63,546 nucleotides of DNA from Luteibacter yeojuensis. GTDB lineage: Bacteria; Pseudomonadota; Gammaproteobacteria; Xanthomonadales; Rhodanobacteraceae. Position numbers and translations under genes: made by a program. Below the pieces are notes generated by a model. The model saw nothing but the letters and a program-made list of their open reading frames with translations, had not been told where the DNA came from and made no database searches. Within the stretch, counting starts at the first letter, position 1. Each line of letters begins with the position of its first letter. Where the stretch lies: NCBI RefSeq assembly GCF_000964085.1, contig NZ_JZRB01000013.1, positions 1 to 63,546 of the forward strand, read 5' to 3'. Positions 1,757 through 11,418 of this stretch are shown here, piece by piece.

Positions 1757-2338
1757 TCACCCTGTGAGTTCTACCGCGCGCTCGCGCCGCCACGCGCGCC
1801 AGCCAAAGGCAGCAAGTACCACGAAGCCCGCATAAAGCACCGCCGTGATGGGCAGGGACTTGTACACATACTCGCCCACGTAGATCACGTCGACGGCGAT
1901 CCAAAGCCACCACGCCGCGGCGTGCCGCCGTGCCTGCCACCATTGCGCTACCAGGCTGAACGATGTCAGCGCAGCGTCGAGCCACGGAAGCGATGCATCG
2001 GTCCACCGATGCATGGCGTAGCCGAGCGCCAGCGCGGCCGCCGTGCCGACCGCCAGATGCAGCGTGGCGCTTCGCGTGCCCAGTGCCGCTACGCGCACAT
2101 GGCCACTGCCATCGAGGTTACGCATCCACCGGTGCCAGCCATAAACGATGAGCAGCGCGAACACCACCTGCAGCAGCGTATCGGAGTACAGCTTTGCGTC
2201 CACGAAGATCCACGCGTACGCCACCACCGATACCAGGCCCACGGGCCAGCACCACGGGCTGCGCCGCGCGGTCAGCCACACACCCGCCGCGCTGACCAGC
2301 GCGGCGGCTAGCTCGAAGAACGAGAGTTCAAAGTTCAT
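1757..2338 (-). CDS. pnuT: PnuC/PnuT-family permease, probably thiamine transporter
   Basis: The protein has 193 residues and about seven hydrophobic segments, with the W-x-x-W signature (YGWHRWM near residue 66) of PnuC vitamin transporters. Members of this fold move nicotinamide riboside (PnuC), riboflavin (PnuX) or thiamine (PnuT) by facilitated diffusion across the inner membrane, trapped by phosphorylation. The ATG lies inside the 3' end of the TonB-dependent receptor gene (11-bp overlap), so the two are co-transcribed and probably translationally coupled. A TPP riboswitch heads the operon, which points to thiamine as substrate. This is inference from regulation, not from substrate-site residues. 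A cognate thiamine kinase is not adjacent downstream, but an APH-fold kinase lies just upstream of the riboswitch. Confidence 0.85.
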   Translation of the reverse strand: MNFELSFFELAAALVSAAGVWLTARRSPWCWPVGLVSVVAYAWIFVDAKLYSDTLLQVVFALLIVYGWHRWMRNLDGSGHVRVAALGTRSATLHLAVGTAAALALGYAMHRWTDASLPWLDAALTSFSLVAQWWQARRHAAAWWLWIAVDVIYVGEYVYKSLPITAVLYAGFVVLAAFGWRAWRRERAVELTG

Positions 2339-4523
2339 AGGTCATCGACAGGCGGGCGAGCCGCGGCATGCCGGGGAACAGGTAGCTGTCACCGCCGGAT
2401 GAGCCGGTATCGCGCCAGTAGAAGTGGTTGAAGACGTTGTCGACGCTGAGGCGCCAAGTCATGGCGTGGCCGCCCACGGTGGTGGCGAAGCGAAGGCCTG
2501 CATCGAACACATGGTACGCCGGCACGCGCGTGGCACCATCGGGCGTGGCCACGTTGCTGCTGGCGTAGCGCCAGCCGCCCAGCACGGCAAGGCCCTGCGC
2601 GAACGGCAGGCTGTAGTCGGCGTACACGGCGGTGCGATAGCGTGGCACGTTGACCACCTGGTGGCCCTCGTACGCGGCCGTGCCGGTGTTGTCCGCACGC
2701 GCACGGATGACATTGGCGCTGGCGGTGAGGCGCAGGTTCTCGGTGACACGGCCGGCGAGGTTCACTTCCACGCCGGTATGCACTTCCTGGCCACGCTGGA
2801 CGAACGTGAAGCCGGCCTCCGTGTCATCGGGCTGGGCAAACTGGTAGGGCTGGCTGATGCGGTAGACCGCAGCCTGCACATCCAGCGCATCGTTGACCGC
2901 ATATTTCGCACCGGCTTCGAGCTGGCGCGAATGCAGGGGCGGCAAGGTGGTGCCATCGTTCGATGTCCAGTACGGCGCGGCGCGGCCCAGCGCGAGCCCT
3001 TCGCCGTAGCTCACGTACGTGGTCAGCGCGGTGGCCGGCTGCCACAGCACGGCGGCTTGCGGCAGCGTCTTCGTCATGCGCGTATCGCGCTCGAGCACGC
3101 CCGTGTCGTCATAGGCACGCTCGTGCAGCTTCACGAAACGCGCGCCGGCAAGCACCTGCCAGGTATCTGACAGGTGCACCCGATCGATCGCGAACAGCGT
3201 GCGCTGCCAGCTGGTGAGCCGGCGGGCGGATGGCCCCGGCTGGTTCGGCGATGGGGCGAACACGGGCACCACCGGGTCGTCGATGTTCGCCGTGCCCACG
3301 TAGTCGTATACGTCCGGCCGCTGGTCGACCGTGCGCCGGAACGACGTGGCACCCACGTTGAGCTCGTGGTCGATGGCGCCCGTGGCGAACGCACCGGTGA
3401 GCGAGGCGCGCACCTCGTCGTTCTGGCGGGTGTCGTCGGGGCTGCGGTAATCGTAGACGTCGTAATCGCCGTTTGGGGCGAAGAAATACCCTGGCGTGGC
3501 ACCGCTGGCGCACGACGGGGCATAGAAGCAGCCATACGCGAATGCGACGTTGTCGTCGATCACCGTGTGGCTGTGGCCGGCGGACAACTGCATGTTCCAC
3601 TGGTCGGTGAAACGGTAGTTGAAGCGCAGCGATGTGTTGCTGGAATCGATGCCGACGGGGCGCTGCCACGGCTGGTAGCCCAGCAGGCGCGTGCGGCTCG
3701 CGTGGCTGGGAATGGTCGTGCCGCCCAGCAGCTGGTAGCCCGATGCCGAACGCCCGCCGCTGGTCTGGTAGTCCGTATCCAGCAGCAGCGTGGCCTTGTC
3801 GGTGATCTTCCAGTCCGCGGCGAGGGAAAGGAAGCTGCGGCGTGCATCGGTATGCTCCACCACGCCGTGGGTTTCTTCATGCGCGGCGTTGACGCGCATG
3901 CCGAACGTCGGCGTGAACCATGTGCCGAGGTCGAGGGCTTCGTACGCCGAGCCGTGCGAATCGGTACCTAGCGTGACCTCATGGACCTCCGCGGGCCGCT
4001 TGCTCACGTAGTTCACCAGGCCACCCGGCTCGACGACGCCCGCCTCGAGGCCGCCCAGGCCTTTCAGCACTTCGACCCGCGCCTTGCCCTCCAGCGCCAG
4101 CAACTGCTCCGCCGACATGATCATGCCGTTGAAACGGAAGCCCGTGGCCAGGTCGAGGGGGAAGCCACGGATCGATACGTCCTGGTAGTAGCCTGCCGGC
4201 GCGTAGTTGTCGTTGATGGCGGCATCGCCGCGAACCAGTTCGCTGAGGGAACGCGGCTGGCGGTCATCGATCTGCGCGCGGGTGATCACCGTGATGGCGG
4301 CCGGCGTGTCGTGCAGCGGTGCGCTGCCAAAGCTCCCGAAGGTATCGAGCTGCGAGTCGGCGGCGCGGTAGCCTTCGCTGGTGGTGGCGCGCACGTCGAT
4401 GGACGGCAGCGTGCGGGCCTGCTGCGGCGCGTCGTCCGCGGCGCGCACGGCGGGGGCGAGGGCGAGCAGCAAGGCCAGGGCGATCGGGGTACGGTTCACG
4501 GTCATCTTCGTCATTGGGGGCAT
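2328..4523 (-). CDS. TonB-dependent outer-membrane receptor, TPP-controlled (thiamine uptake)
   Basis: This 731-residue protein has a cleavable signal peptide (LALLLALAPAVRA), a plug domain starting near residue 60 (DTPAAITVITRAQIDDRQP, then VSIRGF) and a beta-barrel ending in an aromatic-rich C-terminal strand (RLARLSMTYEL). It resembles siderophore-type TonB receptors of the FhuA/FcuA class. Its control by a TPP riboswitch argues that it imports thiamine or a precursor across the outer membrane, handing it to the overlapping PnuC-type permease. Several ATGs (4523, 4514, 4505) could start it. The first in-frame ATG is used here because no Shine-Dalgarno sequence discriminates. A GC hairpin lies just upstream at 4536-4553. 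The family call is sure; the ligand is inferred. Confidence 0.93.
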   Translation of the reverse strand: MPPMTKMTVNRTPIALALLLALAPAVRAADDAPQQARTLPSIDVRATTSEGYRAADSQLDTFGSFGSAPLHDTPAAITVITRAQIDDRQPRSLSELVRGDAAINDNYAPAGYYQDVSIRGFPLDLATGFRFNGMIMSAEQLLALEGKARVEVLKGLGGLEAGVVEPGGLVNYVSKRPAEVHEVTLGTDSHGSAYEALDLGTWFTPTFGMRVNAAHEETHGVVEHTDARRSFLSLAADWKITDKATLLLDTDYQTSGGRSASGYQLLGGTTIPSHASRTRLLGYQPWQRPVGIDSSNTSLRFNYRFTDQWNMQLSAGHSHTVIDDNVAFAYGCFYAPSCASGATPGYFFAPNGDYDVYDYRSPDDTRQNDEVRASLTGAFATGAIDHELNVGATSFRRTVDQRPDVYDYVGTANIDDPVVPVFAPSPNQPGPSARRLTSWQRTLFAIDRVHLSDTWQVLAGARFVKLHERAYDDTGVLERDTRMTKTLPQAAVLWQPATALTTYVSYGEGLALGRAAPYWTSNDGTTLPPLHSRQLEAGAKYAVNDALDVQAAVYRISQPYQFAQPDDTEAGFTFVQRGQEVHTGVEVNLAGRVTENLRLTASANVIRARADNTGTAAYEGHQVVNVPRYRTAVYADYSLPFAQGLAVLGGWRYASSNVATPDGATRVPAYHVFDAGLRFATTVGGHAMTWRLSVDNVFNHFYWRDTGSSGGDSYLFPGMPRLARLSMTYEL

Positions 4524-4535
4524 GGACGAAGCGAC

Positions 4536-4553
4536 GGCGGCCACGGGGCCGCC
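4536..4553 (-). promoter_or_regulatory. Hairpin in the riboswitch expression platform
   Basis: Between the TPP aptamer and the receptor start codon the minus-strand RNA can form a perfect 7-bp GGCGGCC/GGCCGCC stem with a 4-nt loop. There is no following U-run, so it is not an intrinsic terminator. It may be part of a translational or Rho-dependent expression platform. The role is inferred from position only. Confidence 0.45.
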
Positions 4554-4671: not shown

Positions 4672-5823
4672 CTATTGAACCACGAAACCGCGGCGCGCGT
4701 GTCGAATCGTGGCCAGGAAGGCCTGGCCATGTGGCGTGGCGAACCAGGCGGCATGGCCGTGCAGGAAGGTATGCCATGCCACGTCGGCGTGGTCGCCACG
4801 GCGGGTGACCCCCTCGAAATACTCCACTTCCGAGAGGGCGAAATCGACGTGGACCAGGGGCAGCAGGCTCGCGATGGCGCGCAGGTCGTCGTCGCCGAGC
4901 GGCCGCACGGCGTGGTACCCGGCCAGCAGCGCGCAGGCCAGGTCGCCACGGCCGATGTCACCACGTGCGATATCGAGCCAGGCGATGGCATTGCGCTCGA
5001 TCGCCGTCGCGATGTCGAACCACGCGAACGTGGCTGCGCACAGCCCGGCGTCGAGGACCTCGGTGATGGCCGCATCGTCGGTGGCATCGCTCCAGCACAG
5101 GTTGGAGACGTGCCAGTCGCCGTGCGTCCAGAGGCGCGGTGGCTCGCCGATGGCGTCACGCATCGCGGCGTGCCATGGCGCCAGCGTGGCGTGCAGCGCC
5201 GCGTGCCAGTCGCGTGCGCGGAGGTAGGTGGCGAGCGCCGGGCGCTCGTCGAGCTGTGCTTCCAGCGCGGCGACGGGATCGCGCGCGCCCAGTATCTCGG
5301 CGCGGGCGACAAGGATATGCGTGCCGCGCTGGGGGGCGTCGAAGCCCTCGGCTGCGAGGTGCAACCGCGCAAGCATGGCACCCGCGGCTTCGGCATGCTG
5401 GCGCCCGCCGACTGGCGACCACGAGAACGCGTCGCGGTAGATATCCTGCCCGCGGGCGAGCGCGTGCACCTCATAAACCCAATCGCCCTCGGTGAACACG
5501 GTATGGCCAGCCGCGTCGGCGTAAGGCGCGGGCATGGGCACCCCGCCCGCGCGCAGGTGCGCCGCGTACGCGTGCTCCTCGGCCAGCGTGGCCACCGAAC
5601 GCACGGCCACATGGTGGCGTTTGACGAACACCACCCCCGTGGTGGTTTCGACCAGCGCGGCGGCCGACAGCGGGCGCGGCGAGCGCCATGGCATGCCGCG
5701 GAAGCCCCCCGCGCCGACAACGCGTTCGAGCACCGGCGCCACCTCGCTGGCGGCCAGCGGTGGCCAGTCTGGCGGTAGTTCATCGCCGGCAAGGCCATGC
5801 GCGAGGTGGGCGTCGTCGATCAT
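4672..5823 (-). CDS. Aminoglycoside phosphotransferase (APH)-family kinase
   Basis: The 383-residue protein has the APH/choline-kinase fold: an N-lobe lysine in GVVFVKRHHVAVR near residue 65, the catalytic Brenner loop THGDWHVSN near residue 224, and a metal-binding Asp in VLDAGLCAATFAWFD about 20 residues later. Substrates of this superfamily include antibiotics, choline, homoserine and thiamine. The gene starts 19 bp after bufC1 ends, so it could be read through from the bufferin operon. It ends 6 bp before the TPP aptamer, which makes a thiamine-salvage kinase tempting, but the gene is not under the switch. The ATG at 5821-5823 starts the conserved part. The substrate is unknown. Confidence 0.85.
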   Translation of the reverse strand: MIDDAHLAHGLAGDELPPDWPPLAASEVAPVLERVVGAGGFRGMPWRSPRPLSAAALVETTTGVVFVKRHHVAVRSVATLAEEHAYAAHLRAGGVPMPAPYADAAGHTVFTEGDWVYEVHALARGQDIYRDAFSWSPVGGRQHAEAAGAMLARLHLAAEGFDAPQRGTHILVARAEILGARDPVAALEAQLDERPALATYLRARDWHAALHATLAPWHAAMRDAIGEPPRLWTHGDWHVSNLCWSDATDDAAITEVLDAGLCAATFAWFDIATAIERNAIAWLDIARGDIGRGDLACALLAGYHAVRPLGDDDLRAIASLLPLVHVDFALSEVEYFEGVTRRGDHADVAWHTFLHGHAAWFATPHGQAFLATIRHARRGFVVQ

Positions 5824-5842
5824 CGCGCCAGTGTAGCCCGCG

Positions 5843-6580
5843 TCAGCCGTCGACGAGGCCCTGCACGATGCCATCGTCGACCCAGCTGCGCAGCAACGCG
5901 CCGGCCTGCCGCGCGGCGGTGTCGGGTTCGTGCAGGCGGGTCAGCGCTTCGCACATCTCGCCAAATGTGGCGCCGGCCAGCGCCAGGTCGAGGCAGGTGC
6001 ATTCCGGCGCCAGCATGCTGGTGAAGCGCGGGGAGAAATCACGCCGCCATACACGCACGCCGGCGTCCACGTCGAAGACCTCCGCGGCGGGCGGCATGGA
6101 CTCGTTGTTGAGCGCATGCCATATCGCCGTGGCGTTGGTGCGTGTCCAGCGGAACCGCAGCGTGGGCACGAAGCGGAAGCCCGTGGCCTCCCAATCCGCC
6201 GAGACGAGGCCATCGACGCCGATCGGCTCGGCGTCCGCGCCAGAGAACGCGCGGCGCAGGTGCCAGTCGAGCCAGGCAAGCTCCGCGATCTCGGGGTCGG
6301 CGGGGTAATGCGTGTCGAGCGACTCGATGAAGCTTTCGCCGTAGGCATCGAGTGTCCACGACGCGGGCGGCGTCGAGGCGACATAGGATTCCGCCAGCTC
6401 GTCGAAGACGCCATCGCCCAGCCACAAGCGTGTCTTCGCATACGTGTCGCGCAACGACGACACGAGTTGCGAACGGTAGTTGTTGGTGTAGACCGCCATG
6501 CCGCGACCATCGAGGCCGCTGATCGCGGGGGCACCCCGCAGCGTGGCGGCGAAACGTTCCTGGAGATCGCGCAGGTTCAT
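5843..6580 (-). CDS. bufC1: BufC-type partner protein of MNIO oxidase (DUF2063), cassette 1
   Basis: The 245-residue protein carries an N-terminal DUF2063 domain, with the typical opening LQERFAATLRG followed by YTNNYRSQLVSSLRDTYAKT. In bufferin and other MNIO-RiPP pathways this family binds the DUF692 oxidase and helps recruit the precursor peptide. The start ATG overlaps the stop of the upstream DUF692 gene (ATGA), showing translational coupling. Together with bufA1 and bufB1 it completes a full cassette. The assignment to a bufferin pathway rests on the gene order and on the precursor, and is strong. The name follows the bufferin nomenclature. Confidence 0.9.
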   Translation of the reverse strand: MNLRDLQERFAATLRGAPAISGLDGRGMAVYTNNYRSQLVSSLRDTYAKTRLWLGDGVFDELAESYVASTPPASWTLDAYGESFIESLDTHYPADPEIAELAWLDWHLRRAFSGADAEPIGVDGLVSADWEATGFRFVPTLRFRWTRTNATAIWHALNNESMPPAAEVFDVDAGVRVWRRDFSPRFTSMLAPECTCLDLALAGATFGEMCEALTRLHEPDTAARQAGALLRSWVDDGIVQGLVDG

Positions 6581-7416
6581 GCGGCCCTCCGCGATAGCGC
6601 CATGATGGCGCGGGCATGGTCCAGTTCGGCGAGCAGCTCCGCCAGCGGCGGGATATGGTCGTCGCGCTCGATCATCACGGCGACGGGCCCGAGGCGCGCG
6701 GCGAAGCGGGCGAACAGGGCCCAGACGGGGTCGGGCACGGGGGCGTCGTGGGTATCCACCAGCATTTCGCGGCCCTGGCTGTGGCCGGCGAGGTGCACCT
6801 GGCGCACGCGCTCGAGCGGCAGCCTGTCCACCCACGCGGCGGGGTCGAGTCCATGGTTGGTGGCGCTGACGAAGATATTGTTCACGTCGAGCAGAAGGTA
6901 ACACCCTGTTTGTTTACAAAGTGCGTCGAGGAACACGGCCTCGTCGAAGCCCGGCTCGGCCATGTGCAGGTACGTGGAGGGGTTTTCGAGCACCAGCGGC
7001 CTGCCGAGGATATCCTGCGCCTGGCGGACGTTCGCCGCGACCACGGCGAGAGCCTCCTCGGTGTAGGGCAGCGGCAGCAGGTCGTGGCTCTGGAAGCCGC
7101 CCACGGCTGTCCAGCAGAGGTGGTCGGAGACCCACAGCGGCTCGATGCGATCGGCAAGCCCGCGCAGGCGGCGCAGGTAGTCGGGATCCACGCCGTCGGT
7201 GGAACCGATGTTCATGGAGACGCCGTGCAGCGCCACCGGGTGGCGTTCACGGACGCGGGCGAGGATATCGAGCGGGCGCCCGCCCTCTACCATGAAGTTT
7301 TCCGAGATCACCTCGACGAAGTCGACGGGCTGCGTCGTGGAGATGAAGTCGGCGTAGTGAGGCACCCGCAGGCCAAGCCCGAAACCACCGAACGAGGGCA
7401 AGCCAGCCTGGGTCAT
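6577..7416 (-). CDS. bufB1: MNIO-family DUF692 oxidase, bufferin maturase, cassette 1
   Basis: The 279-residue DUF692 protein is a TIM-barrel multinuclear non-haem iron oxidative enzyme. Probable iron ligands are visible in the family motifs: LHGVSMNIGS, WVSDHLCW, VLENPSTYL, LLLDVNNIF, VHLAGH, VDTHDAP and MIERDDHIPP. The family modifies cysteines of ribosomal peptides, for example to thiooxazoles in bufferins or oxazolone/thioamide groups in methanobactin. Here the substrate should be the Cys-rich BufA1 encoded 61 bp upstream. A strong GC hairpin separates the two genes. It overlaps bufC1 by four bases. The enzyme acts in the cytoplasm before precursor export. Confidence 0.95.
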   Translation of the reverse strand: MTQAGLPSFGGFGLGLRVPHYADFISTTQPVDFVEVISENFMVEGGRPLDILARVRERHPVALHGVSMNIGSTDGVDPDYLRRLRGLADRIEPLWVSDHLCWTAVGGFQSHDLLPLPYTEEALAVVAANVRQAQDILGRPLVLENPSTYLHMAEPGFDEAVFLDALCKQTGCYLLLDVNNIFVSATNHGLDPAAWVDRLPLERVRQVHLAGHSQGREMLVDTHDAPVPDPVWALFARFAARLGPVAVMIERDDHIPPLAELLAELDHARAIMALSRRAA

Positions 7417-7435
7417 GGAAGGGCTCCGGGTGCAT

Positions 7436-7460
7436 GCCCGGCCGCACGCTGCGGCCGGGC
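7436..7460 (-). other. Intercistronic hairpin between bufA1 and bufB1
   Basis: A perfect 10-bp inverted repeat (7436-7445 with 7451-7460, all G/C, 5-nt loop) lies about 17 bases after the bufA1 stop and before bufB1. There is no T-run, so it is unlikely to be an efficient intrinsic terminator. It could stabilise the bufA1 transcript end or give partial attenuation, so that precursor is made in excess over maturase. The role is inference. Confidence 0.6.
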
Positions 7461-7477
7461 GGGATCATGATGCCAGC

Positions 7478-7747
7478 TTATTTCGCGGGCGGCGTGGTGC
7501 TGCCGCCCTGGGCCGTGCATTCGCTGGCCGAGACGGCCTTGAAGCCCTGGCCCTTGCAATCGTTCTGGCCCTTGCACGCGTGGTTGCCCGACTTGCAGTC
7601 GGAGGTGCCCTTGCAGCTGTTGATGCCGTAACAGTGCACGGTCTTGCCGGCGGGCTGCTCGGCCGCCTGGGCGGGTGCGCTGATGGCGGCGACGGAAACG
7701 GCGAACAGGGCGGCTGCGGCGGCGACGCTGTGGGTGGCGGTATTCAT
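7478..7747 (-). CDS. bufA1: Bufferin-type Cys-rich precursor peptide 1 (DUF2282-like)
   Basis: The 89-residue protein has a Sec-type signal peptide (MNTATHSVAAAAALFAVSVAAISAPAQA) followed by a short core with six cysteines in CYGINSCKGTSDC, HACKGQNDCKGQG and ASEC. The repeated C-K-G triplets are the hallmark of the bufferin/DUF2282 family, whose cysteines are modified by the neighbouring DUF692 enzyme and which bind copper in the periplasm. The start at 7747 follows a GGAGAA ribosome binding site. A GTAACC-N16-CGAA promoter element lies 43-68 bp upstream. Its Cys pattern differs from that of BufA2, so the two precursors probably receive different patterns of modification. Confidence 0.92.
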   Translation of the reverse strand: MNTATHSVAAAAALFAVSVAAISAPAQAAEQPAGKTVHCYGINSCKGTSDCKSGNHACKGQNDCKGQGFKAVSASECTAQGGSTTPPAK

Positions 7748-7789
7748 CGGGGTTCTCCAGGTGGTGGTGCCATGGGTGGCTTGGGTAAG

Positions 7790-7815
7790 TTCGCCGCGGG
7801 TGGCGCGGCGGTTAC
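7790..7815 (-). promoter_or_regulatory. ECF sigma promoter of bufA1 (GTAACC-N16-CGAA)
   Basis: On the minus strand GTAACC (7815-7810) and CGAA (7793-7790) are separated by exactly 16 bases, preceded by TTGT. The same bipartite element, with the same spacing, occurs before bufA2 and before the sigma gene. It fits the recognition sequence reported for the SigF-NrsF regulon of Caulobacter. It predicts a transcript start near 7783 and a leader of about 36 nt. It also implies that cassette 1 can be transcribed on its own and not only by read-through from cassette 2. Confidence 0.85.
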
Positions 7816-7828
7816 AACGCACGAACAA

Positions 7829-8266
7829 CTAGCGGATGCGCAGCGCGTGGTCGAGCGACACGCGGCCGCCACCGCGCGCGATGAGGTATAGCAGGATCGC
7901 GGCCCACGAAAGGTGCGTTGGCCACGCATCCGGATACACGAAGATCTCGATGATCGTGGTCATGCCCAGCAACACGGCCGCGGACAGGCGCGTGGCCAGG
8001 CCCAGCACCAACAACATGGGCACGAACGTTTCGACGTATGCGGCCATGTGCGCCGCGACCACGGGGGGCACGAGGGGCAAGCGGTATTCGTCCATGAACA
8101 ACTGGTAGGTGCTGTCGGTGAGGGTCAGGAAACCCTCGACCTTGGTCCGGCCTGACTGGAAGAAAATGGCGGCGATGGCGACGCGCGCGACGAGCGCAAG
8201 GACGTCGTGCGTCACGCATTGCTCGATGCGCTCGGCGAGGCTGTTCCAGCGGCTACGCAGGGGCAT
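7829..8266 (-). CDS. DoxX-family membrane protein of the bufferin locus
   Basis: The 145-residue protein has four predicted membrane segments and the DoxX-family opening [22 protein letters not shown]. DoxX proteins are found in DUF2282/DUF692/DUF2063 operons (for example gigT in the gold-induced gig operon of Cupriavidus, and some buf operons), where their job is not settled; electron transfer or membrane anchoring has been suggested. It lies 12 bp after bufC2 and before the internal bufA1 promoter, so it is the last gene of cassette 2. The ATG at 8264-8266 is the natural start. Confidence 0.9.
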
Positions 8267-8278
8267 GGTCGGGTTCCT

Positions 8279-8995
8279 TCAGGCAAGGGCCAGCGCGCCG
8301 GCGCCGAGGGCGGCCGCGATGGCGTGGTCGATGGGAAACGTGGGGAAGGCTTCGCACGCGTGGTCAGCGGCGGCGGCCAGCGGTTGGCCCGCGCCGCATG
8401 CCTCGAGGAAGCACAGGGTGGCGGGTGGCACGGGGGTAGCCAAGGGCTGGCTGCCCGGGCGCGTGAGCAGGATCGCTTCGGGCAGCCACGCGAGGTTGCG
8501 TGGGGCGACGCCATCGCGACTTGCCTGCCACAGGCTTGCGACGGGGAACGCGGAGGCCACCCAGCGCGTCGCGGGGTGGAGCCGCCAGCGGCGGCGGCCC
8601 TCCCAGGCGTCCAGCCAGGCATGGGCATCCAGCGGCTCGGCATCCGCCGCATCGTGGCACGCCGACCACGCGAGGTCGGTGTGTGCCACGTCAACGAGGT
8701 AAGGCATGTCGCCGTGCGTCGGCAGGCTTGCAAGGAACGCGGGAAAGCCTTGGCCGTAGCGCGCCATCCGTGCATCCACGGGCGGGGACGCCTCGGCGAA
8801 ATGCGCGGCGGCAGAGCGGAACCACGCCGCGCCGACCAGCGTGGCCACCGCCGGGAAGTTGGCTTCCAGCGCGTCGATGCAGCCCCGGCGCACCGTATTG
8901 CGATACACGTGGAAGCCGTCGTCATGCGCGCCCTCGCATGCACTGGCAAGCAAGGCGTCGGTGAAGGCCGCCTGGAAGGCGCCCAGCGTGCTCAC
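8279..8995 (-). CDS. bufC2: BufC-type partner protein of MNIO oxidase (DUF2063), cassette 2
   Basis: The 238-residue protein starts at a GTG (8993-8995) that overlaps the stop of bufB2 as GTGA. The N-terminal DUF2063 domain is recognised by FQAAFTDALL, then FHVYRNTVRRGCIDALEANF and ATLVG. It is only distantly similar to BufC1, so each cassette seems to keep its own partner. Known role of the family: complex with the DUF692 oxidase, presenting the precursor. The C-terminal half is rich in Ala and Trp and lacks further recognisable motifs. A longer upstream frame exists but would lie wholly inside bufB2 and is not expected. Confidence 0.9.
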   Translation of the reverse strand: MSTLGAFQAAFTDALLASACEGAHDDGFHVYRNTVRRGCIDALEANFPAVATLVGAAWFRSAAAHFAEASPPVDARMARYGQGFPAFLASLPTHGDMPYLVDVAHTDLAWSACHDAADAEPLDAHAWLDAWEGRRRWRLHPATRWVASAFPVASLWQASRDGVAPRNLAWLPEAILLTRPGSQPLATPVPPATLCFLEACGAGQPLAAAADHACEAFPTFPIDHAIAAALGAGALALA

Positions 8996-9807
8996 GCGGC
9001 CGCCGCTGATATAGCGAGCGCATGCTCGCGCTCGGCAAGCAGCTCGCCGAACGCTGGCACGTTGCCGTCCCGCTCCAGCAGCGTCGGCCGAGGGCCGGTG
9101 AGTCGCAGCAGGTCGGCGAACAGCGCCCATACGGGGGCTGCCACCGGTGCGTCATGCGAATCGACGAGCAGGCCCGTCGCGTCCGTGGCATGGCCCGCCA
9201 GGTGGACTTCGCGCACCGCGTGCAACGGAAGTGAGCCTAGCCACGCGCGTGCATCGGTGCCGAGGTTGTGCGCGCTCACGTGGATATTGTTGACGTCGAG
9301 CAACAGCCCGCAGCCCGTGCGGCGCACCAGCTCGGCGAAGAACTCCCCTTCGCTGTAATCGTGCCCGTCGATCGGCATGTAGTGCGTCGGGTTTTCAACG
9401 GCGATGGTGATGCCCAGCGCATCCTGCGTGCGGCCGATGTTATCCGCGACACGCTGCAAGGCCGCGTGTGAGCGCGGGAACGGCAGCAGGTCGGGAAGGT
9501 AGGTGCCGCGGCGCGTGGACCAGGCCAGGTGCTCGGACACCAGCACTGGCTGGACGCGATCGACCATGGCACGCAGGCGCGCCAGGTGCGCCGCATCGGG
9601 TGGCTCATCCGCGGCGAGCGACAGCGACACGCCATGCAGTGAAAGCGGGTAAGCCCCGGCCAGCGCGTCGAGCAACGCGAGGCGCGGGCCGCCATCCACC
9701 ATGTAGTTCTCCGGGTGGATCTCGAGCCATAACCCGGGCACGGCCTGGCCAAGCGCCGCTTCCGCGTGCGCGGGCTTGAAGCCAAGGCCGATGCCGGGCG
9801 CGGCCAT
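8992..9807 (-). CDS. bufB2: MNIO-family DUF692 oxidase, bufferin maturase, cassette 2
   Basis: The 271-residue DUF692 protein shares all metal-binding blocks with BufB1: LHGVSLSLAA, VSEHLAWS, VENPTHYMPI, LLLDVNNIHVSAHNLG, VHLAGHA, VDSHDAP and LLERDGNVP. It begins six bases after the bufA2 stop, without the hairpin seen in cassette 1, and overlaps bufC2 by four bases. The predicted reaction is O2-dependent oxidation of cysteines in BufA2. Differences from BufB1 (for example IHPENYMVDGG for VISENFMVEGG at the N-terminus) suggest an old duplication or separate acquisition rather than a recent copy. Confidence 0.95.
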   Translation of the reverse strand: MAAPGIGLGFKPAHAEAALGQAVPGLWLEIHPENYMVDGGPRLALLDALAGAYPLSLHGVSLSLAADEPPDAAHLARLRAMVDRVQPVLVSEHLAWSTRRGTYLPDLLPFPRSHAALQRVADNIGRTQDALGITIAVENPTHYMPIDGHDYSEGEFFAELVRRTGCGLLLDVNNIHVSAHNLGTDARAWLGSLPLHAVREVHLAGHATDATGLLVDSHDAPVAAPVWALFADLLRLTGPRPTLLERDGNVPAFGELLAEREHALAISAAAA

Positions 9808-9813
9808 GCGGGT

Positions 9814-10083
9814 TCAGCCCACCTTCGTCAGCGAGCCGTGGCCCTTCGGGGTCACGATGGAGGTGCAGGTGCCCGCCGGCACGTTCTTCCACGCGTTCTT
9901 CTGGTAATCGGCCTTGGCCGTGCCTGCGCACGTGGTCCCGGGGCCGGCGGCACAATCGTTCTGGCCCGCCTTGGCGACGCCCCAGCATTTCTCGACGGCG
10001 GGCTTCTTCGCCTCGTCGGCATGGGCTGCGCCGGCGACGAGCGCCGCGACGGCGAGGGCAAGGGATGCGGCGGTACGGTTCAT
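9814..10083 (-). CDS. bufA2: Bufferin-type Cys-rich precursor peptide 2 (DUF2282)
   Basis: The 89-residue protein opens with a signal peptide ([22 protein letters not shown]) and has four cysteines in [22 protein letters not shown] and PAGTC. This is the classic DUF2282 pattern K-C-x-G-x-A-x-x-G-x-N-D-C. Members are copper-sequestering RiPPs matured by DUF692 enzymes. The ATG at 10081-10083 follows GAAGGAGAG. A GTAACC-N16-CGAA promoter lies upstream and the 5' leader can form a short CCGGGC/GCCCGG hairpin (10101-10117). It heads the bufA2-bufB2-bufC2-doxX operon and is divergent from the sigma gene. Confidence 0.95.
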
Positions 10084-10130
10084 GGTCTCTCCTTCGGGTG
10101 CCGGGCCCTGTGCCCGGGGTCGAAGGGGGA

Positions 10131-10156
10131 TTCGCCGTGGCGCCACGTGCGGTTAC
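10131..10156 (-). promoter_or_regulatory. ECF sigma promoter of bufA2 (GTAACC-N16-CGAA)
   Basis: GTAACC at 10156-10151 and CGAA at 10134-10131 on the minus strand are spaced by exactly 16 bases. The predicted leader is about 40 nt with a good ribosome binding site. It faces the equivalent plus-strand element of the sigma gene across 34 bp. Confidence 0.87.
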
Positions 10157-10190
10157 AGTCGGCGCACACGGAATTTTTTTCATCCCCGCT

Positions 10191-10216
10191 GTAACCGGGG
10201 CCACCGCGCGCGCGAA
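10191..10216 (+). promoter_or_regulatory. ECF sigma autoregulatory promoter (GTAACC-N16-CGAA)
   Basis: GTAACC (10191-10196) and CGAA (10213-10216) are again exactly 16 bases apart. The start codon of the sigma gene follows only nine bases after CGAA, so the expected transcript would begin at or within a few bases of the ATG, giving a leaderless or nearly leaderless mRNA. Confidence 0.85.
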
Positions 10217-10225
10217 CTGGTAGAC

Positions 10226-10780
10226 ATGAGTGCCCTTGCCGCCGAACACGACCTGCGCACGCGCTTCATCGCTGGCTTGCGCGGCGATGCGGGCGCGTAC
10301 AGGCAATTCCTGGACGACCTGGCGGGTTACCTGCGCGGGTGGTTGCGGCGGCGCCTGCCGCGCGCCCACGCCGACGTGGAAGACATCCTCCAGGAAACCC
10401 TGCTGGCCATCCACAATGCCAGGCATACCTACCGCGAGGACCAGCCGCTCACCGCGTGGGTCCACGCCATCGTTCGATACAAGCTCATGGATTACTTCCG
10501 CGCCCACGCACGCCGCGAGGCGCTGCACGACCCCCTCGCCGACGACGGCCACCAGGTGTTCGTCGACGCCGAAACCGAACCCGCCGATGCCCGGCGCGAT
10601 GTCGGCCGCCTGCTCGAAGCCCTGCCCGACCGCCACCGCCTGCCCATCGTGTTCGTGAAGTTGCAGGGCCTGTCCGTGGCCGAAGCGGCACGCCGTTGCG
10701 GCATCTCCGAATCCGCCGTCAAGGTCGGCGTCCACCGCGGCCTCAAGGCACTGGCCGCCAGCATCCGGGAGGCCTCGTGA
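10226..10780 (+). CDS. sigF: ECF RNA polymerase sigma factor (SigF/NrsF type)
   Basis: This 184-residue sigma-70 family protein contains region 2 (VEDILQETLLAIHNARHTYR, then LTAWVHAIVRYKLMDYFR) and region 4 with its helix-turn-helix (LSVAEAARRCGISESAVKVGVHRGLKAL). It is followed, with a 4-base GTGA overlap, by a DUF1109 anti-sigma gene, the layout of the SigF-NrsF pair that controls copper/metal-responsive bufferin operons in Caulobacter. Its own promoter and those of both bufA genes share GTAACC-N16-CGAA. The ATG at 10226 has no Shine-Dalgarno sequence, consistent with a leaderless message. Confidence 0.92.
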   Translation: MSALAAEHDLRTRFIAGLRGDAGAYRQFLDDLAGYLRGWLRRRLPRAHADVEDILQETLLAIHNARHTYREDQPLTAWVHAIVRYKLMDYFRAHARREALHDPLADDGHQVFVDAETEPADARRDVGRLLEALPDRHRLPIVFVKLQGLSVAEAARRCGISESAVKVGVHRGLKALAASIREAS

Positions 10781-11418
10781 AGACCGACGACCTCATCAGC
10801 CTGCTCGCCACTGAAACGCCCGCGGTGGATCGCCGGGTACCTTCGCGACGCTTCGCCGCCGCCGTGCTGGTGGGCCTGGGTGCGGCCCTGCTCCTCATGG
10901 TGGCCGGCCTGGGCCTGCGCCCCGACCTCGGCCAGGCGATTCGCCTGCCCATGTTCTGGCTACGCCTCGCCTACCCCGTCGCCATCGCGGCCACCGCGTT
11001 CCTCGTCGTGCTGCGGCTGGCCCGGCCCGGTGCGCACGTCGGCGTGCGCTGGGTGGCGCTGGGCGCCGCGCCGCTGGGCGCCCTCGCGGCCATGGCTTGC
11101 GTACTCGCCGGCGCGCCCGAGGGCACGCGCATCGCGATGTGGCTTGGGCATACGTGGAAGGTGTGCCCCGTGTTGATCGCCGTGCTGTCGGCGCCCACGT
11201 TCGCCGCCATGCTGTGGGCCGTGCGTGGCATGGCGCCCGTGCGCCCGCGGCTCGCCGGCGCCGCCACGGGGCTGTTCGCGGGGGCCGTCGCCACCACGGC
11301 GTATTGCCTGCATTGCCCCGAGATGGCCCCGCCTTTCTGGGCGTTCTGGTATCTCGTTGGCATGCTGCTACCCACCGCGCTGGGTGCGCTGGCGGGGCCT
11401 CGCTGGTTGCGCTGGTAA
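10777..11418 (+). CDS. nrsF: NrsF-type anti-sigma factor (DUF1109)
   Basis: The 213-residue protein starts at a GTG overlapping the sigma stop. It has a short cytoplasmic N-terminus and about six membrane segments, the DUF1109 architecture. Two conserved cysteine positions are present, C130 in HTWKVCPVL and C180 in AYCLHCPEMAPPFW; these match the two cysteines implicated in metal sensing by Caulobacter NrsF. It should hold the ECF sigma factor at the membrane and release it when metal reacts with the thiols. C178 adds a third thiol in CLHC. Function by homology is strong; the inducing metal is inferred. Confidence 0.92.
   Translation: MKTDDLISLLATETPAVDRRVPSRRFAAAVLVGLGAALLLMVAGLGLRPDLGQAIRLPMFWLRLAYPVAIAATAFLVVLRLARPGAHVGVRWVALGAAPLGALAAMACVLAGAPEGTRIAMWLGHTWKVCPVLIAVLSAPTFAAMLWAVRGMAPVRPRLAGAATGLFAGAVATTAYCLHCPEMAPPFWAFWYLVGMLLPTALGALAGPRWLRW

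Follow-up and report, generated by a model that had tools for sequence, protein, structure and literature searches.

A conserved, linked Buf1-Buf2 bufferin locus with SigF-type promoters in Luteibacter yeojuensis

The closest described counterpart of the locus studied here is the SigF regulon of Caulobacter vibrioides, in which a Buf1 set (CC3254-3257) and a Buf2 set (CC2907-2905) combine the same bufferin precursor families with genes for a multinuclear non-heme iron-dependent oxidative enzyme (MNIO) and a DUF2063 protein (PMC3511200, PMC12452194; statements on published systems refer, here and below, to excerpts of the cited papers). There, as here, DoxX ends the Buf1 set, sigF-nrsF adjoins it, and the promoters read GTAACC-N16-CGAA (PMC3511200, PMC12452194). 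Caulobacter SigF controls both sets through this motif, a dual control that its authors call preliminary, and residues C131 and C181 of the anti-sigma factor NrsF matter (PMC3511200). The regulon is induced by copper and includes msrPQ, and its two buf sets are unlinked (PMC8224329), whereas Luteibacter yeojuensis carries both in one locus, at positions 5843-11418 of a 63,546-nucleotide stretch of DNA that was analysed as a whole (the window).

Captophorins (fontiphorin FonABC, oxazolin, gonophorin) likewise unite an MNIO with an Asp base, a DUF2063-RRE partner and a signal-bearing Cys-rich precursor. Those named have Lys-Cys (EGKCG) precursors and Phe after the base, whereas the locus here has a DUF2282 precursor (Gly after the base) and a Cys-Lys precursor (Asp). 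Methanobactin MbnABC and pearlin TglHI also have the MNIO fold and a partner in common with it, but their precursors lack Sec signal peptides and carry other modifications (PMC12452194). Both MNIOs here are far under the MbnB cut-off (71 and 80 of 325).

All nine genes were found by combining the list of open reading frames (ORFs), the sequence and family searches (Table 1). On the minus strand the order of transcription is bufA1-bufB1-bufC1-doxX-bufA2-bufB2-bufC2, and sigF-nrsF diverges from it on the plus strand. The best explanation of the whole, to which we give a probability of about 0.77, is a linked double captophorin/bufferin locus, driven by SigF, whose dedicated enzyme pairs make copper buffers. 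An initial annotation of the window had called two full cassettes, each with its own MNIO and DUF2063 partner, and Pfam and NCBIfam bore this out at the same coordinates. It had placed doxX with bufA2-bufB2-bufC2, though it may have numbered the sets inversely; doxX ends the DUF2282 cassette and not the six-Cys one, as it does in named relatives, following bufC1 in most named Buf1 clusters. With bufABC in order, an MNIO, a DUF2063 partner and doxX, this set has the composition of a Buf1 bufferin cluster.

Table 1. Genes and SigF-type promoter sites of the locus, in window positions
Feature	Position	Strand	Assignment and evidence
bufC2	5843..6580	-	DUF2063-RRE partner of BufB2; Pfam DUF2063 E 5e-20; start overlaps bufB2 stop
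bufB2	6577..7416	-	Buf2-type MNIO maturase; PF05114 E 7e-107; NF050167 366 bits; Asp253 after base Asp252
bufA2	7478..7747	-	Six-Cys Buf2 precursor; NF050166 107 bits, cut-off 60
SigF-type promoter of bufA2 operon	7790..7815	-	GTAACC-N16-CGAA match
doxX	7829..8266	-	Last gene of the Buf1 cassette; Pfam DoxX E 1e-15
bufC1	8279..8995	-	DUF2063-RRE partner of BufB1; GTG start overlaps bufB1 stop; Pfam DUF2063 E 1e-20 (query with upstream extension)
bufB1	8992..9807	-	Buf1-type MNIO maturase; PF05114 E 1e-93; NF050167 334 bits; Gly248 after base Asp247
bufA1	9814..10083	-	DUF2282 Buf1 precursor, four Cys; PF10048 E 2e-24
SigF-type promoter of bufA1 operon	10131..10156	-	GTAACC-N16-CGAA match
SigF-type promoter of sigF-nrsF (autoregulation)	10191..10216	+	GTAACC-N16-CGAA match
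sigF, extracytoplasmic function (ECF) sigma factor	10226..10780	+	Sigma70 r2 and r4; NF009188 281.6 bits, cut-off 250
nrsF, anti-sigma factor	10777..11418	+	PF06532 238 bits, E 1e-70; Cys130, Cys180, further Cys177

Pfam matches exceed the cut-off for every gene except bufA2, which has no Pfam match and is recognised by the NCBIfam model NF050166, 'BufA2 family bufferin-type metallophore'. No NCBIfam match was obtained for bufA1. Both BufB proteins belong to PF05114 (MbnB_TglH_ChrH) and pass the bufferin maturase cut-off of 310 bits (NF050167). As the sigma subfamily matched by the sigF product (NF009188) is unnamed, the name SigF is based on the NrsF partner and the promoter motif.

A comparison of synteny across the family, as proposed with the initial annotation, revealed a conserved locus. 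PF05114 was searched in 147 genomes of the family (at least 108 with a match) and 23 of the genus (21 with a match); outside the genus, linked pairs may be missed because the family search covers the matches listed. Fetched loci were scored with hidden Markov models built from this locus, with L001, L002, L133-L141 and L162-L191 left out of the protein sets. Fifteen of the 23 genus genomes hold the full linked locus, three lack bufB1 (G112, G147, G157) and five have no NrsF match. One full locus in a second genus (G011) brings the totals to 16 full loci and 19 SigF loci. In the order (398 genomes), only this genus and G011 gave NrsF scores over 220 bits, the next best being 138.

A double set, which had first been taken as unusual, is not so in itself, as Caulobacter holds both sets under one SigF (PMC3511200). 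Nor is linkage unique to the genus, because a Caulobacteraceae metagenome-assembled genome (L072) has both sets adjacent, as here, with SigF-type sites at bufA1, bufA2, sigF and an nrsF. Its sets are divergent where those described here are tandem, its sigF lies about 3 kb beyond doxX, and it has an extra nrsF. Two of 80 named Buf1 loci (L118, L131) have both sets about 4 kb apart. In all 19 SigF loci Buf2 stands beside sigF-nrsF, unlike the reported absence of sigma and NrsF genes from Buf2 clusters (PMC12452194), which is a tendency and not a definition. The excerpts of PMC12452194, PMC13097082, PMC3511200, PMC8224329 and PMC12538549 mention no linked Buf1-Buf2 sets, and a full-text literature search, with subscription papers and supplements outside its scope, gave, among the matches listed, no title or abstract on such an arrangement. 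New relative to the cited literature are the linked locus, SigF sites at an unlinked doxX and at orphan bufA1 genes, and losses of bufB1 that keep bufA1 and bufC1. The locus is thus a conserved linked version of a known copper-buffering pair, new in its arrangement and loss series and not in kind.

The two precursors differ in a constant way. BufA1 has four Cys spaced 11-8-21 and BufA2 six spaced 6-6-7-6-13, each in 19/19 loci, in keeping with Buf1 and Buf2 precursors, respectively. Their similarity is not significant (31% over 51, E 0.039, BLASTP), and both start with stretches that look signal-like by eye. The cassette enzymes are strongly diverged, as initially stated: the B proteins are 44% identical over 264 residues and the C proteins 26% over 155 (BLASTP), similar to the Caulobacter paralogues (B 43%, C 23%, A 36%; PMC3511200).

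We then compared the MNIOs of the 16 full loci. The catalytic base Asp is present in 16/16 BufB1 and 16/16 BufB2, and all 32 enzymes have 25 invariant polar residues in common, among them the ERD Asp. Equating the ERD Asp with the base Asp249 of FonB (PMC13097082) relies on an alignment resting on the ERD motif and the solved structure 3bww, which reads ERDF with Phe after the base. Twenty-seven type-specific columns separate BufB1 from BufB2. One of them adjoins the base, with Gly in 16/16 BufB1 and Asp in 16/16 BufB2, so that the Buf2 set has its own MNIO of Cys-Lys type together with a partner. At the equivalent position, Phe250 in FonB, Lys-Cys enzymes have Phe and Cys-Lys enzymes Asp, and DUF2282 enzymes show no conservation; the position is linked to substrate class and not to reaction (PMC13097082). 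In 80 named BufB1, 11 residue types occur there. This pattern suggests that the two enzymes carry out one reaction but differ in their substrate pockets.

In a tree of 90 MNIOs, made by a quick method with SH-aLRT support only, B1 and B2 form separate groups (support 100 each) with different nearest kin, which rules out a local duplication of one cassette and indicates that two old families meet in the locus. All 16 linked BufB1 group together (96) within a set (98) that includes Burkholderiales, Caulobacteraceae and Maricaulis Buf1 enzymes. Linked BufB2 also form one group, in which those of the three bufB1-less genomes are nested (98). Caulobacter OR37 was considered as a source of a second MNIO and set aside, with one match only. 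Two further MNIO genes (L154 in G154, L048 in G143) score low to both BufB models and are unplaced.

AlphaFold models of the partners (predicted local distance difference test 93.2 for BufC1, 93.6 for BufC2) match TglI, 8hci_A, at E 2e-5 and 7e-6, respectively, and that of BufC2 also matches NGO1945 (3dee, E 3e-5). As the TglI matches, and that of BufC2 to 3dee, are full-length, both partners are predicted to have a DUF2063 domain followed by an RRE-type domain, the build of PME-type 1 partners. Separate RRE matches to TbiB1 are weak (E 0.097 for BufC2, 4.1 for BufC1).

To locate promoters, we used the Caulobacter SigF motif GTAACC-N16-CGAA (PMC3511200) with spacers of 15-18 allowed. The window contains three sites, against 0.15 expected, all with a spacer of 16 and placed before sigF, bufA1 and bufA2; in the whole genome the 16-base-spacer motif occurs 9 times, versus 5 for a reversed control pattern. 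Each of the 19 SigF loci holds three sites with a 16-base spacer, one 40-47 bases before bufA2 and another 44-63 bases before bufA1. The third precedes sigF in 14 loci and an extra nrsF ahead of sigF in four (L040, L041, L142, L146); in L144 it overlaps the modelled sigF start by about 20 bases, and the true start is probably further in. The excess over expectation and the conservation in 19 loci rule out a chance origin. Because spacer letters vary between genomes, selection on the hexamers is likely. The claim that both cassettes share one SigF/NrsF pair is strengthened, since the sites precede both bufA genes in 19/19 loci. As judged by motif, SigF target promoters appear to be present. Among the 80 named Buf1 loci (two of them without a detected bufA1), a bufA1 site occurs in 13/19 with sigF nearby versus 6/59 without, where many contigs end early and a nearby sigF may be missed.

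C130 and C180 of NrsF correspond to C131 and C181 of the Caulobacter protein, and its PF06532 match with these two conserved Cys argues for membership in the NrsF family. In all 19 loci the main copy also has Cys177, which completes a CxxC. The extra nrsF lies between the SigF-type site and sigF (L040:8582-9220, L041:3919-4557, L142:8623-9261, L146:3669-4307); these copies lack Cys177, and the L142 copy also lacks Cys130. Two anti-sigma factors may thus flank one sigma factor in these four loci.

Genes, families, promoter motifs, conservation and selectivity residues are direct observations here, to which known systems contribute regulation, chemistry, metal, export and enzyme dedication in the following scheme. 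NrsF would hold SigF at the membrane until a metal, most likely copper, acted on its periplasmic Cys and freed SigF. SigF would then transcribe its own operon, bufA1B1C1-doxX and bufA2B2C2 from promoters with the same two hexamers. In the cytoplasm, the RRE domain of BufC would let each BufB-BufC pair bind its cognate precursor, whose Cys the pair would oxidise to 5-thiooxazoles, a reaction in which each modified Cys loses four hydrogens. Sec would export the products, and surplus periplasmic copper would be chelated. The chemistry would be shared and the pocket different, with BufB1 accepting the DUF2282 peptide and BufB2 the six-Cys Cys-Lys peptide.

Several observations weigh against this reading or parts of it. 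NCBIfam scores are under the cut-offs for NrsF (NF042994, 171 of 300), doxX (HvfX, 53.6 of 80) and the partners (HvfC, cut-off 142; 26.4 for BufC1, 22.7 for BufC2); the 50 matches listed for the BufC1 model do not include 3dee; and bufA1 has no exact site in 6 of the 19 named loci that have sigF nearby. In twelve fetched loci, nine in the genus and three in other members of the family, one MNIO and one partner stand beside both precursor types, in the order bufA1-doxX-insert-bufA2-bufB2-bufC2 (L042, L043, L044, L045, L049, L050, L052, L150, L151, L155, L156, L157), and neither bufA1 nor bufA2 has a SigF-type site. Finally, bufB1 is gone from three relatives that keep bufA1 and bufC1. Because of the single-MNIO loci and these losses, strict enzyme dedication may fail in places. 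Orphan bufA1 genes with SigF sites fit the same picture, in which the enzymes would be largely interchangeable, either pair would act on either precursor, and the second set would mainly add dose or redundancy. However, 16 loci keep both enzymes and both partners, with a type-specific invariant residue after the base, FonBC failed on Cys-Lys sequences such as NACKG (PMC13097082), and each bufB1-less genome holds another BufB1-type MNIO. We therefore consider general interchangeability unlikely. An MNIO-partner pair may serve several related precursors, for which further studies are needed (PMC12452194).

The initial annotation had taken the double set to mean different chemistry, with each enzyme pair installing its own modification, so that the mature peptides would differ chemically and might serve different metals or oxidation states. 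The identity of only 44%, the separate groups, the type-specific columns, one of them next to the base, and the retention of both sets in 16 loci would agree with this. It is opposed by the base and the 25 polar residues shared by all 32 enzymes, and by FonB, in which a change at F250 altered substrate tolerance while the product kept its 305 nm band (PMC13097082); we hold different modifications to be highly improbable. That some other metal (chromate, cadmium, gold or silver), and not copper, is the main signal is scarcely more probable. Caulobacter SigF genes are induced by chromate and cadmium (PMC3511200), and a related cluster of Cupriavidus metallidurans is upregulated by gold, silver and copper (PMC8224329), but the Caulobacter sigF mutant is copper-sensitive with wild-type-like sensitivity to chromate and cadmium (PMC8224329), and Buf1 thiooxazoles bind Cu(I) and Cu(II) (PMC12452194). 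By analogy with known systems, one thiooxazole chemistry with two dedicated enzymes and two copper buffers is most likely, and the two products probably bind different numbers of copper ions or bind copper with different affinity or kinetics.

The natural losses of bufB1 bear directly on enzyme dedication. An assembly artefact is unlikely, as three genomes, two of them single-contig, are affected. Since the three form one group, one event and not three is indicated, and because G011, which has bufB1, falls outside their BufB2, the missing gene is most simply a loss. By tblastn no bufB1 remnant was found in these loci, the matches being BufB2 itself and short chance ones; in the two genomes with a clear start, bufA1 ends about ten bases before bufC1. 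Their bufA1 keeps four Cys, and the three SigF-type sites stay. Decay of BufC1 after the loss was not seen: its ratio of non-synonymous to synonymous differences (pN/pS) is 0.40-0.55 in 3 bufB1-less pairs versus 0.33-0.60 in 14 full-locus pairs, rough values, since the overlap was read as an N-terminal extension in part of the BufC1 rows. The trio has changed 8/65 BufC1 columns conserved in 15 full loci (L038, a near copy of L036, was left out of the BufC alignments), versus 4/70, 2/67, 0/67 and 6/77 in control trios, one of which is not a clade; a shift in BufC1 is suggestive only. The Asn of its YxN motif is replaced by Ser, Ser and Gly, and is kept in 15/16 full-locus and 77/80 named BufC1. 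By eye, the altered motif resembles neither that of BufC2 nor that of the unlinked BufC.

The remaining BufB2 was examined for BufB1-type residues. In the segment after the base each of the three enzymes has one such residue, two of them Phe258 and the third Gly253, at positions where at least 15/16 full loci keep Leu258 and Asp253. Across the 27 type-specific columns, BufB1 residues appear in three (218, 258, 253): Leu218 in 3/3 bufB1-less and 8/12 dual loci, Phe258 in 2/3 and 0/12, and Gly253 in 1/3 and 1/12. A wholesale conversion of BufB2 toward BufB1 was thus not seen. Elsewhere in each of these genomes lies an unlinked Buf1 cluster (L047, L149, L153), which has an MNIO of its own and, ahead of bufC, an insert of about 1 kb. 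Clusters of this insert type occur in 0/15 full-locus genus genomes among the MNIOs listed; one full-locus genome (G151) has another unlinked Buf1 set. In the bufB1-less genomes, BufA1 may be modified by the unlinked enzyme, by BufB2 or not at all. BufB2 might serve both BufC1 and BufC2, with the partner picking the substrate, or BufC1 might bind the precursor but no longer have a dedicated MNIO; these options are tentative, and we rate them as doubtful, if somewhat less so than general interchangeability. The Phe258 residues were counted as evidence for partner choice and left its odds as before.

Sites outside the locus were also inspected. An unlinked DoxX-family gene of this genome (L140/L193, G000:C101, minus strand; named by eye), a difference from Caulobacter, has an exact SigF-type site just upstream. 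The site is kept in its four closest genus homologues (L194-L197), being found in 5/6 matches and missing from the weakest, so that this doxX is likely a further SigF target. Lone bufA1 genes occur in three genomes that have the full locus as well (G123, G076, G089; L159, L160, L161); they have a SigF-type site in 3/3 fetched stretches and no MNIO or partner within the 10 kb fetched. For the six genome sites outside the locus, downstream ORFs were read by eye and relatives compared for the unlinked doxX site only. One of them (L137, G000:C59, minus strand) lies 26 bases upstream of an ORF of 394 codons whose start looks signal-like. By eye, with no search aimed at it, msrP was not recognised among the ORFs behind the nine exact sites of the genome.

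Around the cassettes themselves, a TonB-dependent siderophore receptor and an APH-fold kinase lie on the minus strand downstream of bufC2 (2328-4544 and 4672-5829). These neighbours also flank 10/18 other SigF loci as fetched, some stretches ending early. In two loci (L036, L038) doxX and bufA2 are separated by an insert of about 0.7 kb, which in L036 contains an ORF (6312-6830) resembling a small membrane protein by eye. Inserts of the single-MNIO loci, read in L042, L045 and L050, hold a gene resembling, again by eye, a secreted alpha/beta hydrolase.

Cumulatively, these results suggest a SigF regulon that extends to an unlinked doxX and to precursor genes without enzymes. Because a single organism has matched Buf1 and Buf2 sets, both with the same type of promoter, enzyme dedication, cross-processing and partner swapping become testable, and sister species without bufB1 but with its precursor and partner add a natural test of the match between enzyme and peptide. 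The locus helps to address how an MNIO and its partner select among precursors that bear signal peptides.

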